Part shown: in pieces, positions 11,056-19,816 of the stretch
Position numbering within the stretch: position 1 is the stretch's first letter
Layout: each line of letters starts with the position of its first letter
Assembly (NCBI RefSeq): GCF_900473965.1
Contig: NZ_UCNJ01000024.1
Span: forward strand, 124,001-188,000
DNA length: 64,000 bases
Origin: Synechococcus sp. UW179A
GTDB taxonomy: Bacteria; Cyanobacteriota; Cyanobacteriia; PCC-6307; Cyanobiaceae
Reading direction: 5' to 3'
Translations under genes and position numbers: made by a program
Notes under the pieces: model-generated
Told to the model about the DNA's origin: nothing
Databases searched by the model: none
Seen by the model: the letters and a program-made list of their open reading frames with translations, nothing else

Positions 11056-12033
11056 ATGGCGCTGCAACTGGCGATCCGCTCTTATGCCTATTCCCTGTCG
11101 CGTCCGCTGAGAACCGCTTCAGGCGCTTGGCAGCAGCGTGAGGGTTGGTTGCTGCGTCTGACCTGTGGGATCTCCGGCCGCGTGGGATGGGGGGAGGTGG
11201 CTCCGCTCGATCCCGCACACCGTCCGGCCTGTGAGCGGGCTTTGTCGCGATGGCAGAACTCTGTGAATACGGAGTGCAAACGGGACCAGCTGGAGGCACT
11301 TCTGCCCAAGCTGCCGGTTGAAGTCGCCTTTGCGCTCGGCGCTGCGCTGGCCGAGCTGGATGGCCTTGTTCAGGCATGGCTTCCTGCTCCGAGCTCGGCG
11401 TGTCTGTTGCCCGCTGGTCCGGCCATGCTTTCGATGCTGGACCAGCTGCTGGCGACTCATCCAGTCGGGGATCCCATCACTGTGAAGTGGAAGGTGGCCG
11501 CAATAGACGCGGATCTGGAATGGTCATTGCTCTCCAGACTTCTGGACCGTCTCCCACCGGAGGCGCGTCTGCGCCTGGACGCCAATGCAGGCTGGGAGCG
11601 GTCTGAGGCGGATCGATGGGCTGGAGTGCTGGAGGGTGATCCGCGTTTGGATTGGCTGGAGCAGCCACTGGCAGTGGACGATCTTCAAGGCCTGAGGGAT
11701 ATGGCGAAGCGTGTTCCTGTCGCCCTGGATGAGTCGCTGCTAAAGCAACCTGCTTTGCGGGAGCAGTGGCAGGGTTGGCAGGTGCGGCGACCCCTGCTGG
11801 AGGGAGATCCGCGACCTCTGCTGCGCCAGTTGCAGGAAGGCCGGCCGCGGCTGATGCTCAGTACCGTTTTCGAAACCGGTATCGGCTTTCGCTGGCTGGC
11901 GTTAATGGCAGGGCTTCAGCAGCGAGGCCCTACTCCCGTGGCTCCCGGACTGGCTCCAGGTTGGTGTCATCAAGGTCCCCTGTTCAGCTGTGATCCTGCG
12001 CAGGTGTGGGCTGCCGCTGAGTTGGGCTGCTGA
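11056..12033 (+). CDS. menC: o-Succinylbenzoate synthase
   Basis: Enolase-superfamily dehydratase making o-succinylbenzoate from SHCHC. The 325 residues show the superfamily catalytic pieces: KWK in the TVKWKVA strand, RLDANAGW with the metal Asp, DWLEQPL with Glu, and VALDESLL, followed by the second catalytic Lys region. Its TGA overlaps the menE ATG by one base (TGATG), so the two are translationally coupled. Confidence 0.92.
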   Translation: MALQLAIRSYAYSLSRPLRTASGAWQQREGWLLRLTCGISGRVGWGEVAPLDPAHRPACERALSRWQNSVNTECKRDQLEALLPKLPVEVAFALGAALAELDGLVQAWLPAPSSACLLPAGPAMLSMLDQLLATHPVGDPITVKWKVAAIDADLEWSLLSRLLDRLPPEARLRLDANAGWERSEADRWAGVLEGDPRLDWLEQPLAVDDLQGLRDMAKRVPVALDESLLKQPALREQWQGWQVRRPLLEGDPRPLLRQLQEGRPRLMLSTVFETGIGFRWLALMAGLQQRGPTPVAPGLAPGWCHQGPLFSCDPAQVWAAAELGC

Positions 12034-13298
12034 TGGTGGGCCTGAGGGATCTCCACTGTGACCCTGTTCAGCCTGGTGAGGCTGCTGCTGCCCTCGAGGT
12101 GGCCCTGGCTGATCCGGTGTGGGTGCGTCTGCTCGGTTCCGGAGTTCAGCCGGAGCCTCAAGTCCTGGATGCTGATGGTCTGGATTGGCCTCCTGGACCA
12201 GGGCTGGTGCTCTCAACAGGTGGCAGCAGCGGCGGACGACAGCTCTGCCTCCAACCCTTGTCGAATTTGGATTGCTCTGCTCAGGCCTGCGGGTCGTGGC
12301 TGAAGACGATCGGCTTGGATCCAGCCTCAACTCTGGCTTGGAATCCTCTGCCGTTTCAGCACGTGAGCGGTCTAATGCCCTGGTGGCGTGCGCGTCAGTG
12401 GGGCGCAGATCACGCCTGGATCCCGTCCGCTCTAATTAAACAGCCGGCGCAACTTCTCAAACACAGCCGTTGCCATCCAGGTTGGCAACAGCGGCCGATG
12501 GTGCTGTCGCTGGTGCCCACCCAACTAAGGCGGCTGCTGGCTGATCCCTGTGGACGTTCCTGGTTGGCAGAGATGGCGGTGATCTGGGTTGGTGGTGCAG
12601 CATTGCCAGTTGATCTGGCCGATCAATCGCGCGACTTGGGCATCAGGCTTGCCCCCTGTTACGGCGCGACGGAGACAGCCGCCATGGTGACGGCCCAGGC
12701 GCCGCTTGATTTTCTGGCGGGGATGGGTGGTTGTGGTCGACCCCTTGACGATGTGCGTCTTCGACTGAATCAGCAGGGAGCTCTGGCGGTGCACTGCAAC
12801 CGGCTGGCTGTGGCCAGGCTGGATGAGGCAGGAGTCCTCTACGCGCTGTCGGATGGGAACGGTTGGTGGCAATCAGCTGATCTGGCGGAACTTGAAGGCT
12901 CACCAACTGATCCCCAGCTGCATCTCTTGGGACGAATCGATGACGCCATCCAGTCCGGTGGCGTCACGGTGTTTCCTTCCCAACTGGAGCAAAGACTGCT
13001 GATGGAGGCTCGCAAGCAAGGGCTACCCCTCGATGCCGTGCTGTTGCTGGGGGTGGTCAACCGTGAATGGGGACAACGACTGGTGGCTCTTGTTCGTTGG
13101 TCGTCGCTGGACGAGCCGTCGGACGGTTGGGACCGCTTGCGCAGATTGGTGTCCGACTGGCCTGCACCAGAACGCCCTCTGCATTGGGTTCGGTGCCAGG
13201 AACTGCAATGCTCTGAGGCAGGGAAGTGGGAGCGTCCACGTTGGCAGAACTGGTTGATAACTCAACACTCAGCTCAGCGATTAACTCAGCAGTTCTGA
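12033..13298 (+). CDS. menE: o-Succinylbenzoate-CoA ligase
   Basis: An AMP-forming acyl-CoA ligase activating o-succinylbenzoate. At 421 residues it is compact for the family. The phosphate-binding loop is STGGSSGGRQ at about 66-75, the adenine motif is CYGATETAAMV, and the C-terminal hinge is LLGRIDDAIQSGGVTVFP. It ends the menA-C-E unit. menD, menB and menH are not in this window, so the pathway genes are dispersed. Confidence 0.92.
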   Translation: MVGLRDLHCDPVQPGEAAAALEVALADPVWVRLLGSGVQPEPQVLDADGLDWPPGPGLVLSTGGSSGGRQLCLQPLSNLDCSAQACGSWLKTIGLDPASTLAWNPLPFQHVSGLMPWWRARQWGADHAWIPSALIKQPAQLLKHSRCHPGWQQRPMVLSLVPTQLRRLLADPCGRSWLAEMAVIWVGGAALPVDLADQSRDLGIRLAPCYGATETAAMVTAQAPLDFLAGMGGCGRPLDDVRLRLNQQGALAVHCNRLAVARLDEAGVLYALSDGNGWWQSADLAELEGSPTDPQLHLLGRIDDAIQSGGVTVFPSQLEQRLLMEARKQGLPLDAVLLLGVVNREWGQRLVALVRWSSLDEPSDGWDRLRRLVSDWPAPERPLHWVRCQELQCSEAGKWERPRWQNWLITQHSAQRLTQQF

Positions 13299-13752
13299 AT
13301 CTGTGCCGCAGTGATTCATTCCATATTCATTTCCAATGCTTTGCTCTGGGATGTACTTCCTTCCTGCTTGGTTGCATTCTCAATCTTGAGGCAGATCTGT
13401 TTCGTTTTTTCCATTGGAGACTGGGAGGTTTGTGAGGTTGGGAGAAGTGGTGTGCTCAACCGAATGACCGATGAATCTGTCTGTTGCGCCGTTTGACGTA
13501 ATGGCGAGAATCCCCCAGGTCTGGATAGTGATCTGCTCGATTGCCTTTGACTGATGCCTTGGCCCTGCTCGCTGGATCTGCCTTAAAAAAGAAACCAGCA
13601 AAAGGCAACGTTCTCTTTGCCACAAGCGCGCGTATCAAATTAATTTCAACACCCTGTTTTGGTGCCTGAATTGTGAATTAGTTCGCGGTTTGTCCCTCTG
13701 GTATATCGGCAAACTCTTAGGGTAATTTTCTGAGTTTTGTTGGGTTTCTTCG
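13299..13752. other. 454-base AT-rich spacer between menE and cpcL
   Basis: No reading frame here looks like a protein. The stretch is visibly AT-richer than the men genes. A weak inverted repeat (GGCAA at 13604-13608 with TTGCC at 13617-13621) is flanked by a short A run, which would make it a weak minus-strand terminator with no gene to serve. The promoter and leader of the following linker gene must lie here, but I cannot place -10/-35 boxes with confidence. Confidence 0.5.
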
Positions 13753-14487
13753 TTGTCAGTTCCTCTTCGGCCCTTTCGACCTGCCTCTCAAAATATTCGT
13801 GTGAGCACAATTGCTGCTCCCTCCATGGAAGGGGACGTTGTTGATAATGCTGGGGATGTTATTAATCGTTGTTATCGTCAGATCTATTTTCATGCAATGA
13901 GTAGCGATAGAGATCGCTATCTTGAGTCGCAGCTTAGAAATGGTTCAATTACAGTAAGGGATTTCATTCGTGGTCTATTGCTTTCGGACCGATTTTTGCG
14001 TGGTTATGTCGCTTGTAATAGCAATTATCGCCTTGTCGAGCAGGTTATCGGCAGGGCTTTGGGTCGCAAGGTAAGGGATAACACCGAAAAATTAACTTAT
14101 TCAATTGTTATCGCCGAGAAAGGATTTGAGACTTTTGTTGATCTGGTCCTCAACAGTGAGGAGTACATGCAGAGGTTTGGTTACGACACTGTTCCTCTTG
14201 AGATCTCAAGAGTTTTGCCGGGTCGAGCTGTCGGTGAAGCCCCTGTTTATCAGGAATTCCCTCGATACTCTTATGACTGGCAGGAAAAGCTAACTTCAAA
14301 CGACATGATGATGTCGATTGAAGATCACCTGAATTTCGGCCCTACGAAGTCGTTCGCAGAGAAAGTGCTGTATGAGCGACCCTCTGATAAGGCGTTCCGT
14401 TACATCATTCCATCCTTCGTCATCCTTTCGGGATTGATTGTTGTTGGAATTGTGAAAGTCTTTACAAGTATCTTTGTGGTGGGCTGA
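13753..14487 (+). CDS. cpcL: CpcL-type phycobilisome rod linker with C-terminal membrane anchor
   Basis: The N-terminus SVPLRPFRPASQNIRVS and the region to about residue 150 (VINRCYRQIYFHAM, RDFIRGLLLSDRF, YRLVEQVIGRALGRKV, NSEEYMQRFG) match the CpcG/CpcL linker domain. The 244-residue protein ends in a roughly 22-residue hydrophobic helix (about 217-238) after FRYI. In the CpcG2/CpcL group this tail anchors a coreless rod phycobilisome at photosystem I; ordinary CpcG rod-core linkers lack it. TTG at 13753 is the only possible start after the upstream stop at 13723. The gene is near 42 percent GC in sampled lines, well below its neighbours, suggesting transfer or different selection. Confidence 0.85.
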   Translation: MSVPLRPFRPASQNIRVSTIAAPSMEGDVVDNAGDVINRCYRQIYFHAMSSDRDRYLESQLRNGSITVRDFIRGLLLSDRFLRGYVACNSNYRLVEQVIGRALGRKVRDNTEKLTYSIVIAEKGFETFVDLVLNSEEYMQRFGYDTVPLEISRVLPGRAVGEAPVYQEFPRYSYDWQEKLTSNDMMMSIEDHLNFGPTKSFAEKVLYERPSDKAFRYIIPSFVILSGLIVVGIVKVFTSIFVVG

Positions 14488-14492
14488 GCTTT

Positions 14493-14873
14493 TTAATAAG
14501 CGGCTTTCGCCATTTCTTCTTTTTTCTTTTCAATTAATTCTTCAAAGCTGATCCAGTGAATGCAGTCTACGGGGCAGGTGTCAATGGCTTCGTTGATCAC
14601 CATTGTTGAATCACCGTCTTGGCGAATTGCTCTGCACTTTCCCGTTTCCTGATCCATCAGAAAGGTATTGGTTGCCACGTGGGCGCAATATCGACATCCG
14701 ACACAAACTTTTTCATCGACCCAGATTGCCTGTAATCTCAGTTCGCCGCCAAGACACGGTTCTAGGCCTGACGGTGACGTGATGTCGTGAGACGGTGCAG
14801 TAAATGCGGCCGAGGTGTCAAATGTCGTCTCAGCGTCTGAGGATGCTGTAAATGCCGCAGAGGTGTCGAACAT
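14493..14873 (-). CDS. 4Fe-4S ferredoxin with repeated N-terminal peptide
   Basis: A 126-residue single-cluster ferredoxin of the cyanobacterial/chloroplast type also found fused to DnaJ domains in plants. Cluster ligands are Cys57, Cys60, Cys63 (CVGCRYC) and Cys100 in DTCPVDCIHW; Cys104 is extra. About 45 residues precede the domain and contain a ten-residue unit FDTSAAFTAS/P twice, 16 residues apart, followed by a Ser/Thr-rich linker. The C-terminus is a charged helix (EELIEKKKEEM). It is convergent to cpcL with only 5 bases between stops. Its electron partner is unknown; supply to NDH-1 or photosystem I is a guess from context. Confidence 0.85.
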   Translation of the reverse strand: MFDTSAAFTASSDAETTFDTSAAFTAPSHDITSPSGLEPCLGGELRLQAIWVDEKVCVGCRYCAHVATNTFLMDQETGKCRAIRQDGDSTMVINEAIDTCPVDCIHWISFEELIEKKKEEMAKAAY

Positions 14874-15021
14874 TGTGAATAGCTGGTATCACTTGCGAAT
14901 CGAGAAGCCTGGCAATCTCTGCTCAGTGTTGAGGCTTGAGACTTTTAAAATGCTGTAGGACAACTCCAATTGTTAAAGAGGTGATGAGAGGTGTAATTGA
15001 ATGGAGTGGTGAGGAGATTGT

Positions 15022-15156
15022 TCAGGATGTTTGGTTGATTTTGTATTGCTTGATCGCAACTTGTAGTTGACCAATGGCGGCTCTGCCAATGTTGAAAGTT
15101 GCCCAGCTCAAGGCAAGAAGAATGGGCAATGCCACAATCAGAATTCTTAGATCCAT
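15022..15156 (-). CDS. psbY: Photosystem II protein PsbY
   Basis: A 44-residue gene shorter than usual ORF cut-offs. The translation starts [19 protein letters not shown] and continues [12 protein letters not shown], which matches cyanobacterial PsbY: one transmembrane helix, then the FNIG-A signature and a short polar tail. PsbY is a single-span peripheral photosystem II subunit. An upstream ATG at 15162 would add two residues. It is the gene before the ferredoxin on the same strand, separated by 148 bases. Confidence 0.85.
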
Positions 15157-15354
15157 CGGCATATGAAAATGACCCACAAATTAGCTTTGGTGCAAATTTT
15201 TTCAGTGTTCTATGACGGCTGCCTGCGTTGCAGATGCCTGATCTATGGGCGAATTCTTGAACCTGTCGATGTCACAATTGTGTCGCCACTGGATTTCAGG
15301 GCGCTGTTGTAAATCTGACCTTGTTATGCGCGGTAGGACGACTCAGTCGTGGGT

Positions 15355-15810
15355 TCAGAGTTCTTCGATTTGTCCGATCTGTGCAGCCTCGAGCCAGCGT
15401 GAAATTGCGTCGGGCAATGGACAGCGTCGCCGAGTTTGCACATTGATGGCCAATTGTCTGATCAGGCCAGTGGCGACTTCCTGTTTGTTCAGCAGAAAGT
15501 GACTGCGAACTTCAAAACACCCCTGATCAATTCGTTGTGGAGTCAGCCTTACGAGAAGTTGATCTCCCCCATGCACCGCTTTTTTGAAGCTGGCACTGCA
15601 ATGCACTACAGGGAGTGCAGTGTCTGGCCAATGTTCCTGGTCGCGGCATCCAGGAAACACTGTTTGGGCCTCAATTCCATACAGTTCCAGGCTCTCTTCC
15701 CATGCCTCATGGCACCAGCGCAACAGCTGATGAAAATGCATGACGCCAGCAGCATCCGTGTCGCCGAAGCGCACGGTTCTGCTGAGGTTGAGCCAGGAGT
15801 GCTTCGCCAT
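15355..15810 (-). CDS. Hotdog-fold thioesterase, probable 1,4-dihydroxy-2-naphthoyl-CoA hydrolase
   Basis: A 151-residue 4HBT-type thioesterase with the active-site segment VRFGDTDAAGVMHFHQL at about 13-29 (catalytic Asp in GDTDAAG) and the long helix CHEAWEESL. In cyanobacteria a homologue hydrolyses DHNA-CoA, the step before MenA in phylloquinone synthesis. Finding it 2 kb from menF-A-C-E supports that assignment, though other acyl-CoA substrates are possible. Confidence 0.85.
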   Translation of the reverse strand: MAKHSWLNLSRTVRFGDTDAAGVMHFHQLLRWCHEAWEESLELYGIEAQTVFPGCRDQEHWPDTALPVVHCSASFKKAVHGGDQLLVRLTPQRIDQGCFEVRSHFLLNKQEVATGLIRQLAINVQTRRRCPLPDAISRWLEAAQIGQIEEL

Positions 15811-16338: not shown

Positions 16339-17523
16339 TCAACGATCGACAGATCCCATGATCACATCGATGGAGCCGAGGATCGCCATGATGTCGGCGA
16401 CCTTGTGTCCCTTGAGGATGTGGGGAAGGATCTGCAGGTTGTTGCTGTCTGCGGCACGGATCTTGAAGCGCCAGGGTGTCACGTCGTTGTTCCCCTGAAT
16501 GAAGACTCCGATCTCGCCTTTCCCGGATTCCAGTCGGGTGTAAAGCTCGCCATTGGGAATTTTGAATGTGGGTGCCACCTTCTTGGCCACGTACTGGTAG
16601 TCGAAGCCGGCGAAATCGCTGTCTTTGCCCTCGGCCATGCGTTTGGCTTCGAGGTTCTCTGTTGGGCCACCGGGAATCATGTCGCAGGCTTGGCGAAGAA
16701 TCTTGAGGGACTGGCGCATTTCTTCGACACGAACCCTGTAACGGGCGAAGCAGTCGCCCTCTTTCTCCCAGACCACATTCCAGTCGAAGTCGTCGTAACA
16801 CTCGTAATGGTCAACCTTGCGCAGGTCCCACGGCACTCCGGAGGCTCTCAGCATCGGACCAGAAAGGCTCCAGTTGATAGCTTCTTCCTTGCCGATCACC
16901 CCCAGACCTTCAATACGTCGACGGAAAATCGGGTTATTGGTGATCAACTTTTCATATTCATCGATCTTGGGGCCGAACCAGTCACAGAAATCGCGACATT
17001 TTTCCAGCCAACCCCAAGGCAGATCGGCTGCTACACCCCCGATGCGGAAGTAGTTGTTATTGATCAGGCGCTGACCCGTGGCCGCCTCCCAAAGGTCATA
17101 AATCATCTCCCGTTCACGGAAGATATAGAAAAACGGGGTCTGGGCTCCGACATCAGCGAGGAAGGGCCCTAGCCAGAGCAAATGATTGGCAATGCGGTTG
17201 AGTTCCAACATCAACACCCGGATATAACTGGCTCGCTTGGGAATAGGAATATTCGCAAGCCTTTCAGGAGCGTTCACGACAATCGCTTCGTAGAACATGC
17301 CTGCCGCGTAATCCATCCGGCTCACGTAGGGCACGAACATGACGTTCGTTCTGTTTTCGGCGATCTTCTCCATGCCGCGATGGAGGTAGCCGATCACAGG
17401 CTCGCAATCCACCACATCCTCTCCATCAAGAGTCACCACAAGGCGCAATACGCCGTGCATTGAGGGGTGGTGGGGGCCAAAGTTGACCACCATCGGCTCC
17501 GTGCGCGTTTCCAGCTGCGTCAT
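16339..17523 (-). CDS. ndhH: NAD(P)H-quinone oxidoreductase subunit H
   Basis: The 49-kDa hydrophilic-arm subunit of cyanobacterial NDH-1, near the quinone site. The ATG at 17523 gives 394 residues, the normal length, with [24 protein letters not shown] at the start and [18 protein letters not shown] at the end. The complex takes electrons from reduced ferredoxin for cyclic flow and respiration. It stands alone, away from the ndhA-I-G-E operon, and is divergent from rsmH. Confidence 0.97.
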
Positions 17524-17567
17524 GGGGCCGTGGCAAAACATTTGTATCGGGATCTTAGGAAGGACCC

Positions 17568-18500
17568 ATGCCCGAACTGCCATCCAGCTCCGCCCAGGGC
17601 TTCATGCATGTGCCGGTTCTGGCCGAACCGTTGATGCAAACGCTGGCCGCGGAGCTCAAGGAACAGCGTCAATCAGGAGTGTTCATTGATGCGACGCTGG
17701 GCGGCGGCGGCCACAGCGGCCTGTTGCTGGATCGCTATCCGCAGTTGCGTCTGGTGGGTCTCGATCACGATCAAACCGCCCGTTCTGCAGCAGCCGAGCG
17801 GCTTGAGCACCATGGCGATCGCGTCACAATCGTGGCGACCAATTTCGCTGATTACACCCCTCCTCATACGGTTTCATTGGTCCTGGCCGACCTTGGGGTG
17901 AGCAGCCCTCAGCTGGACTTGGCGCAGCGGGGATTCAGCTTTCGGCTGGATGGTCCCCTCGACATGCGGATGAATCCAGCCGGGGGAGGAGAAACTGCTG
18001 CTGAACTGATTGCAAGGCTGGATGAATCAGCCTTGGCGGATCTGATCTATGCCTATGGCGAAGAACGCTTGTCACGGCGGATTGCACGCAGGATCAAAGC
18101 TGATCTGGATGCCAGCGGCGCCTATCCCGGTACGGCGGCGCTGGCTTATGCAGTTGCTGGCTGTTATCCACCTAAGGCCCGCCGTGGTCGTATTCATCCC
18201 GCCACGCGCACCTTTCAGGCCCTGCGGGTCGCGGTCAATGATGAGCTTGCGGTTCTAGACCGCTTGTTGCAACAAGCCCCTAACTGGCTCCAGCCCGATG
18301 GTCTGCTGGCGATCATCAGTTTCCATTCGCTTGAAGACCGGCGAGTGAAGACGGCCTTTCGCTCAGATGAGCGCCTGCAGCGCGTGACTCGGAAGCCACT
18401 GATAGCTGACGAGGCTGAGCAGCAGATCAATCCGCGCAGTCGCAGCGCAAAGTTACGCATTGCCCGACGCCGCCCGACCGAGACGAGGTCTGGGGTATGA
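17568..18500 (+). CDS. rsmH: 16S rRNA (cytosine-1402-N4)-methyltransferase
   Basis: SAM-dependent methyltransferase RsmH (formerly MraW). The 310-residue protein shows [11 protein letters not shown], the SAM loop [37 protein letters not shown], and the C-terminal [13 protein letters not shown] signature. The next gene begins four bases before the stop codon ends. Confidence 0.97.
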
Positions 18501-19045
18501 GCTGGATCACGACTTCCGATGGGGTGTGGTGGATTGCCCTGCTGGTTCAGCTGCTGGCGATTCCAGGCACATTTTTACCCCTTCTTCCAGGTCTCATTTG
18601 GTTGCCGGTGGGAGCCCTTGTCTGGATGGGAGCTGTTGGCTGGTCTCAGGCCTGGCCTGAGTTCATCCTGGCGACGGTTCTTTTCGGATTGGGTCTCATC
18701 GCTGATCTGCTGGCTCTGGGACTCGCATCTGCACGTCTCAAGGCCAGTCGCTGGTCTGCGGCGGGAGCTGGAGTGGGCTTGCTTGTGGGAGTGCTGGGTT
18801 TGCTGCCGGCACTGCCGTTCGGTGGGCCTCTTCTGGGGGCCTTGTTTGGTCCATGGCTGGGAGCAACCCTGGTTGAAACCTGGTTCACAACAAAGCCACC
18901 CCGAAATCTGGGGTGGCTTAAGGCGTTGCGCCAGGGATCAGTCGTTGGTCTGGCGGTGGTGGCTGGTCTATTAATCAGCAAGATTGCTCAGTTTTTGATG
19001 GCTCTGTTCGGTCTTGCCGGTTTCGTGATTCTCAGTTTCCATTAA
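18497..19045 (+). CDS. DUF456 membrane protein
   Basis: A 182-residue protein with four or five hydrophobic segments. The early [23 protein letters not shown] and the central glycine-rich [20 protein letters not shown] match the DUF456 pattern, with glycine-zipper-like helices. Function is unknown. The ATG overlaps the rsmH stop by 4 bases. It converges on the next gene with the two stops directly abutting. Confidence 0.75.
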
Positions 19046-19816
19046 TTAGTTGTTATTCATCAAACCCGTCTGATCTTCGCTCCCGAACAGTTGGCGATAG
19101 GCAGCAGTGGAGATGCAGATTAGGACGGGCACGACGACAAATAATCCTCCGTAATGAAATGCGGCGGCGATTGCATTAATGATCGTTTCGACGATGAAAA
19201 ACCAAAGAACTGTCCACCAGGAAGGATCAACAACGGAACGCCCTTTCTGAATGGCTTCAAAGGAGCCATTGTTTTGAACCAGAGCGATAAAGGGGAGGAA
19301 CTTCTGATTGATAGAGAGGTATATGAAGAAAACAAGGGCAATGATTAGGGGGATAATGGCCAGAGTCTGGTTGATTTGTACAAGCCCAAACCCAACAAGA
19401 GAGCAGATCAAGCCGATCACGACAAAGAGGACGAAAAGTTCAATCGCTCTGATGAATAAACGGCCTGTGGCTTCGCCATCCCAGCGTGTAAAAGTCTTGA
19501 AATCGGGTTTGACTCCTTCAAGGCATTGCCAGGAGCCTCGGATGATTCCCACAACCCCCCAAAGAATCACAATGATGTAGCCAACAAGGCCCACGACCAG
19601 AAGCATCCCAGCACCTACAGGATGAATATCAGGGATGCCAGGAACAGACGCGATTCGTGCTGAGCCAAATGCTGCCAAAGCTGCGAAAGGCAGGGCGATG
19701 ACAGCAACAAGTGCTTGAAAGAGCAGGAAAGTCCAGGGGGCCTTTGCGAAGGCATTCCACCCGTCTTCGATGGCTTGAAGCACGTGTAGCCGCTGGTTGG
19801 CCGGTGTCTCAGTCAT
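19046..19816 (-). CDS. Hypothetical multi-pass membrane protein
   Basis: A 256-residue protein with about six hydrophobic helices. The pattern (an N-terminal GWNAFAKAPWTFLLFQ, a central VGIIRGSWQCLEG, and later RSVVDPSWWTVLWFFIVE) resembles bacterial membrane proteins of the DUF975/DUF2189 style with a repeated polar entry loop, but I do not recognise a defined family. It is convergent with the DUF456 gene and downstream of the cysteine desulfurase on the same strand, 77 bases away. No enzymatic motif is visible. Confidence 0.7.
   Translation of the reverse strand: MTETPANQRLHVLQAIEDGWNAFAKAPWTFLLFQALVAVIALPFAALAAFGSARIASVPGIPDIHPVGAGMLLVVGLVGYIIVILWGVVGIIRGSWQCLEGVKPDFKTFTRWDGEATGRLFIRAIELFVLFVVIGLICSLVGFGLVQINQTLAIIPLIIALVFFIYLSINQKFLPFIALVQNNGSFEAIQKGRSVVDPSWWTVLWFFIVETIINAIAAAFHYGGLFVVVPVLICISTAAYRQLFGSEDQTGLMNNN

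Follow-up and report, generated by a model that had tools for sequence, protein, structure and literature searches.

The DNA analysed here (the window, 64 kb in length) is G000:C24:124001-188000, part of the 3.06-Mb genome of Synechococcus sp. UW179A (G000). Between menE (12033-13298, plus strand) and the gene for a 4HBT-type thioesterase (15355-15810, minus strand; by its context probably a DHNA-CoA thioesterase) it carries an inserted AT-rich block at 13299-15354. The first gene of the block, cpcL2 (13753-14487, plus strand), opens with a TTG codon and encodes a phycobilisome linker of 244 residues with a C-terminal membrane helix (PBS_linker_poly, E = 3e-35). It is followed by fdL (14493-14873, minus strand), which encodes a single-cluster [4Fe-4S] ferredoxin of 126 residues, a putative Fed7-like paralog (Fer4_13, E = 2e-13), and by psbY2 (15022-15177, minus strand), a second copy of the gene for photosystem II protein Y (PsbY, E = 2.8e-14), which matched curated PsbY models above their cut-off. 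All three are second copies within this genome, the first psbY lying at G000:C12:342505-342615. A sequence-only reading had described a 4Fe-4S ferredoxin whose stop codon lies 5 bases from that of the linker gene, with psbY next in line, and reading frames and domain matches bear out each point. The possibility that cpcL2 and fdL form one operon in UW179A is rejected because the two genes converge.

GC content is 44.8% in cpcL2, 48.9% in fdL and 44.4% in psbY2, against 61-64% in menF, menA, menC and menE, and of the 128 500-base segments of the window (mean 58.4%, sd 3.8) the four that span 13501-15500 all rank in the lowest five. The AT-rich block of the sequence-only reading thus stands, with 44-49% GC in its genes, but the figure of about 57% that it gave for the men genes was too low. 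A further AT-rich segment, 19001-19500 (46.6% GC), covers the 3′ part of a reading frame at 19046-19816. Searches for traces of how the block arrived or is read gave little: no convincing flanking repeats between 12500 and 16500, no tRNA within the 64-kb window that might have guided insertion, one weak ferredoxin match and nothing else among the PHROGs phage families, no RNA family match up to an E value of 1 between 13000 and 16500, and no terminator or promoter signals above those of shuffled sequence. Insertion guided by a tRNA and an origin in phage are therefore rejected.

In 35 of 40 further ndhH loci, including loci from CpcL2 genomes with the linker elsewhere, ndhH is followed by the thioesterase gene and then by menE in reverse, with menC, menA and menF after it as far as the stretch reached; menE was not found in the other five, of which G553 and G387 offered a stretch long enough to show it. 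The thioesterase gene and menE are directly convergent in these relatives, and no psbY motif occurs in the 18 of these loci that were searched. The run psbY-fdL-cpcL2 is therefore an insertion in the window's clade (clade A). Since the ndhH-thioesterase-men order exists without the pair, nearness to ndhH (16339-17583, minus strand), a backbone gene outside the cassette, and to the phylloquinone genes is uninformative on function, and we reject the position as a functional one. It had been offered earlier as support for a role in cyclic electron flow, an argument that falls with the conserved backbone. The pair is linked to ndh genes solely in the eight clade-A genomes, which is not a conserved linkage; cpcL2 is located elsewhere in 24 of the 32 genomes that carry it.

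A second membrane-tailed linker

The architecture of CpcL proteins is a linker domain followed by one C-terminal membrane helix. In CpcL2 the PBS_linker_poly domain spans residues 33-149, the most hydrophobic 19-residue stretch begins at residue 218, and an AlphaFold2 model, fairly good over most of the linker domain (mean pLDDT 66.4, about 80 at 221-240), has one helix at 212-243. Hydropathy, alignment and model agree that a C-terminal membrane helix replaces the core-binding tail, and the helix that the sequence-only reading put at 217-238 is confirmed. The alignment made of CpcL2 covers 24 rows. A Foldseek search with the model retrieved CpcG and CpcL rod linkers, CpcL of Synechocystis (8hfq_n) standing ninth with an E value of 4e-11.

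The linker is not the common marine CpcL, a candidate rejected because CpcL2 forms a second clade beside it. UW179A also encodes a membrane-tailed CpcL1 (C14:24718-25182) and a tail-less CpcG (C23). A tree of 83 linkers was built after 11 rows had been set aside because they did not represent full rod-core linkers. In it all 32 CpcL2 rows form one clade (100/100) beside the CpcL1 of Cyanobiaceae, and the result was the same in a tree with CpcG added, which used 17 of the 32 CpcL2 rows. A hydrophobic C-terminal tail is also seen in the linkers nearest to CpcL2 in Cyanobiaceae (CpcL1; L207, L037-L053, L219-L225).

Genomes G478, G498 and G472, which we take to be strains CC9311, CC9902 and CC9605, all carry CpcL2. 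The protein is probably the product of cpcGIII, the third cpcG copy that Six et al. (2007, PMC2246261) reported away from the phycobilisome genes in CC9311, CC9902, BL107 and CC9605. CpcL1 probably corresponds to their CpcGII, which the same paper describes as undetected in the phycobilisomes of four strains, yet seen earlier in WH8102; the hydrophobic tail of CpcL1 may explain its absence from the isolated phycobilisomes of those four.

The stretch before the TTG start (13630-13752, plus strand), a leader of about 120 bp, is conserved in the eight clade-A genomes. Six of them, the window included, have GTATCAAAT at the place corresponding to 13632, and two have GTATCAATT. The first of these also occurs upstream of cpcL2 in 7 of 13 genomes with the tandem gene arrangement described below, with one-letter variants in 4 more.

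A ferredoxin paired with the linker

FdL has cysteines at 57, 60, 63, 100 and 104, which make up a single [4Fe-4S] motif (C-x2-C-x2-C and CP-x2-C) with the spacing of Fed7. Judged by its sequence, it is a paralog of a single-copy ferredoxin widespread in cyanobacteria; the common copy of UW179A (C32:293499-293825) is 54% identical to it. Among solved structures, the one whose sequence matches it best is that of a 64-residue ferredoxin I (1dax), and its own structure model is poor (mean pLDDT 53). In a tree of 89 ferredoxins, built on few columns and unsure in its inner branches, a single clade (99/99), separate from the 67 common copies, comprises 21 copies linked to cpcL2 and the unlinked copy of G575. 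All 22 have an extra cysteine, Cys80, in the setting G-[R/K]-C-R; in the common copies serine or alanine takes its place (24 Ser and 4 Ala in the copies read from 28 Cyanobiaceae genomes without CpcL2). The basic C-terminal tail of the common ferredoxin is absent from FdL in an alignment of 17 FdL and two common copies, both of which have it. At the N-terminus of FdL in the window's clade (14796-14873, minus strand) the peptide FDTSAAFTA appears twice in a near-duplication, which is not seen in the aligned FdL of tandem arrangement.

Counting a linker only if its match extended through the tail, we found full-length CpcL2 in 32 of 350 Cyanobiaceae genomes; G539, which has isiA and a linker fragment at a contig edge, may add one more to the 32. 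FdL occurs in 22 of these genomes, whereas none of the 318 others has it as a second copy (Fisher p about 1e-27, uncorrected for kinship), ferredoxin type having been read in 30 of those 318 (the 28 mentioned above, G510 and G560). A second ferredoxin is present in 20 genomes, 17 of them with CpcL2; in the other three both copies are of the common type, and the apparent second ferredoxins of G583, G510 and G560, all common in type, resemble a duplicated locus, a split gene and a contig-end piece. Five further, incomplete CpcL2 genomes (G578, G568, G559, G541 and G575) have the FdL type alone. In 21 genomes fdL adjoins cpcL2: eight have the genes convergent with stop codons 4-5 bases apart, all in clade A, and 13 have them in tandem, with fdL downstream across gaps of 8-72 bp (starts chosen mechanically). 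Neighbourhood of a cpcL gene and this ferredoxin had been predicted across cyanobacteria. Inside the family the prediction holds (21 of 32 adjacent in two orientations, one more on another contig, and a second copy in none of the 318 without the linker), but the pairing is one between a single paralog of each gene within Cyanobiaceae, not one of CpcL across cyanobacteria. In UW179A itself, CpcL1 and the common ferredoxin of Fed7-like type are encoded on separate contigs.

In the trees made, CpcL2 and FdL each have a single origin. On the CpcL2 tree the presence of FdL changes four times, three of them forced, which would fit one gain and a few losses; on an ndhH tree of 60 genomes (of 66; five had no match and G575 a partial one) CpcL2 changes 14 times, eight of them forced. 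Pairs corrected for kinship gave FdL and CpcL2 changing together about 4.9 times and in opposite directions 0.0 times (median p 0.0625, not significant at low power). CpcL2 can evidently do without FdL, since 10 of the 32 genomes lack it and several of these are complete (the ten include single-contig G478, G225, G221, G445, G529, G498 and G227). A second psbY is found in 7 of 9 CpcL2 genomes tested and in none of 7 others; the remaining two of the nine have one psbY only. Among the titles and abstracts seen on CpcL, cpcGIII, marine Synechococcus and iron, none dealt with a pair of CpcL2 and a ferredoxin; a 2020 study by Ahlgren et al. is said to concern ferredoxin paralogs and iron niches.

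Association with isiA and interpretation

The distribution of CpcL2 nearly matches that of isiA. A marine-type isiA (at least 600 bits, a cut-off set after the scores were known, the next lower matches reaching 570 bits) is present in 29 of the 32 CpcL2 genomes and in 9 of the 318 others, where no full-length CpcL2 accompanies it. The three CpcL2 genomes without it are 53-80% complete, and it is found in every one of the 19 CpcL2 genomes that are 90% complete or more. After correction for kinship the two genes change together about 4.2 times and in opposite directions 0.0 times, which at low power is not significant (median p 0.125; tests without G563). They are close on the chromosome in six genomes, where isiA lies 1.2-1.7 kb from cpcL2 (G445, G529, G575, G498, G553 and G227), and in G225 isiA, psbY2 and cpcL2 fall within 13.6 kb, psbY2 in between; in UW179A isiA is on a separate contig (C28). 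Upstream alignments inspected by eye revealed no motif clearly common to isiA and cpcL2.

Other neighbours of cpcL2 in various loci are genes for flavodoxin, 2Fe-2S ferredoxin, ferritin, pyridine-nucleotide reductase or PsaL, and in G575 FdL is found together with psbY and a flavodoxin gene. In G559 and G547 cpcL2 is preceded by a psaL gene at a distance of about 0.55-0.6 kb (L106:8551-9051, L107:5842-6345), and psaL is upstream also in G602. Small proteins of about 45-135 residues, many of them membrane-like, recur by cpcL2, fdL, psbY2, isiA or flavodoxin genes in different genomes (L117:4283-8775, L328:4622-7959, L322:4380-11012); seven of them, when scanned, had no significant Pfam match, and these recurrent proteins are candidate additional members of this gene set.

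In the ndhH tree UW179A groups with G545, G527 and G533, which we take to be BIOS-E4-1, BIOS-U3-1 and MIT S9220 of clade CRD1, and the window's clade is probably CRD1. That clade is reported to dominate iron-depleted waters and to carry isiA (PMC7522525, PMC7378029, PMC9124967).

The explanation that we favour, with a confidence that stands about midway between belief and doubt, is that the block is an accessory cassette for iron limitation in which CpcL2 anchors extra rods near photosystem I and FdL serves as a redox partner. Each photosystem I contains about 12 iron atoms, and in iron-limited cells the complex should become scarce. By anchoring core-less phycobilisome rods beside photosystem I, CpcL2, presumably under iron regulation, would allow the fewer reaction centres to catch more light, alongside the ring formed by IsiA. 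In the low-iron state FdL could act as a Fed7-like redox relay or sensor, Fed7 having been tied in Synechocystis to ferredoxin-thioredoxin reductase and to tolerance of iron starvation (PMC4284462), and PsbY2 may help to re-tune photosystem II. There is a counterpoint to an iron cassette in that an iron-containing ferredoxin is costly under iron limitation. We offer as a tentative speculation a more specific form of the proposal: some marine Synechococcus would possess an iron-sparing photosystem I antenna of rods anchored by CpcL2, with FdL as a physical, dedicated redox component whose extra cysteine acts as a thiol switch. The attachment of the antenna and the use of electrons at photosystem I would then be regulated in concert.

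Three other explanations can be weighed against the same observations. It is conceivable, though unlikely, that cpcL2, fdL, psbY2 and isiA merely travel together in mobile AT-rich islands and that their products do not cooperate. Such hitch-hiking would account for a cpcL2 whose AT content exceeds that of its flanks in 31 of the 32 loci, for neighbour genes that vary and for the patchy presence described above (14 changes on the ndhH tree, eight forced). It accounts less well for an FdL that retains its own signature and has never been seen as a second copy without CpcL2, for a pair that is adjacent in two arrangements at different sites, or for the window's clade, in which cpcL2, fdL and psbY2 are together although the cassette lies away from isiA. 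A less probable idea is that cells make CpcL2 as an alternative rod anchor under a particular light colour, much as happens with CpcL in type 1 chromatic acclimation, where CpcL phycobilisomes on photosystem I depend on green light (PMC13342260). Of the four cpcGIII strains reported by Six et al. (2007, PMC2246261), three are chromatic acclimaters, but the fourth, CC9605, is not marked as an acclimater in that paper, and the acclimater RS9916 has no cpcGIII. The neighbours of cpcL2 that we could recognise, moreover, include isiA, flavodoxin and ferritin genes.

Supercomplexes of photosystem I, NDH-1 and CpcL are known in other cyanobacteria, and the CpcL-type architecture and co-inherited ferredoxin would suit a dedicated cyclic-electron-flow module, in which CpcL rods feed photosystem I in such a complex and the ferredoxin donates to NDH-1. 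Against this, NDH-1 is known to use 2Fe-2S ferredoxin, whereas FdL belongs to the Fed7 type with its single [4Fe-4S] cluster, and psbY2 codes for a photosystem II protein. The nearby ndhH and men genes form a backbone that genomes without the block also possess, and in 24 of 32 CpcL2 genomes the linker is located elsewhere. In Synechocystis the Fed7 type is tied to iron starvation and redox crosstalk, not to NDH-1 (PMC4284462). Cyclic flow is thus a possible role that has gained no specific support here, and we regard it as about as improbable as the light-colour reading.

The usual ocean markers of iron limitation at photosystem I are IsiA and flavodoxin, and phycobilisomes are not usually counted among them. 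If CpcL2 and FdL do form an antenna module for iron stress, the gene pair could be tracked in metatranscriptomes and would provide a test of how the photosystems are balanced in a low-iron clade. It might also supply a reason for the "paradoxical" rise of ferredoxin transcripts reported at low iron in wild Synechococcus (PMC9723758).

Comparison with known systems

CpcL2 resembles the CpcL (CpcG2) of Synechocystis sp. PCC 6803 (PDB 8hfq, chain n) in having a linker domain and a single C-terminal membrane helix with no core-binding tail. By sequence, however, it scores higher against a core-binding CpcG (9wg7_A1, 226 bits) than against Synechocystis CpcL (191 bits), and the membrane-tailed linkers of Cyanobiaceae are a clade of their own relative to other CpcL, although an AU test does not reject a tail that arose once (p 0.1, with L201 of G011 outside the tested group). 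The tail of CpcL2 does not align with the solved CpcL bound to photosystem I, so that binding of CpcL2 to photosystem I is inferred. The account of cpcGIII by Six et al. (2007, PMC2246261), in its available text, is silent on a membrane helix, on a ferredoxin partner, on a psbY copy and on a link to isiA.

Fed7 (sll0662) of Synechocystis and FdL both carry a single [4Fe-4S] motif with cysteines spaced 3, 3, 37 and 4 residues apart (53, 56, 59, 96 and 100 in Fed7; PMC4284462). Iron starvation induces fed7, the gene is required for growth at limiting iron, where the mutant is sensitive, and the reported partners of the protein are FtrC and a DnaJ protein (PMC4284462). Unlike Fed7, FdL is a lineage-specific second copy; it carries the additional Cys80 and lacks the basic tail at the C-terminus of the common copy.

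A gene cluster of low-iron Synechococcus populations, Syn-eCAG_011, combines flavodoxin and thioredoxin reductase genes (PMC10119275), and in UW179A such genes, identified by similarity, lie beside isiA, while in G445 they are close to both cpcL2 and isiA; the main text of that paper does not contain the words phycobilisome, linker or ferredoxin. Another known system to compare is the antenna that IsiA forms with photosystem I under iron stress. IsiA is a chlorophyll antenna and CpcL2 a phycobilisome linker, but both are encoded by accessory antenna genes, which are nearly matched in distribution and are close neighbours in six genomes.
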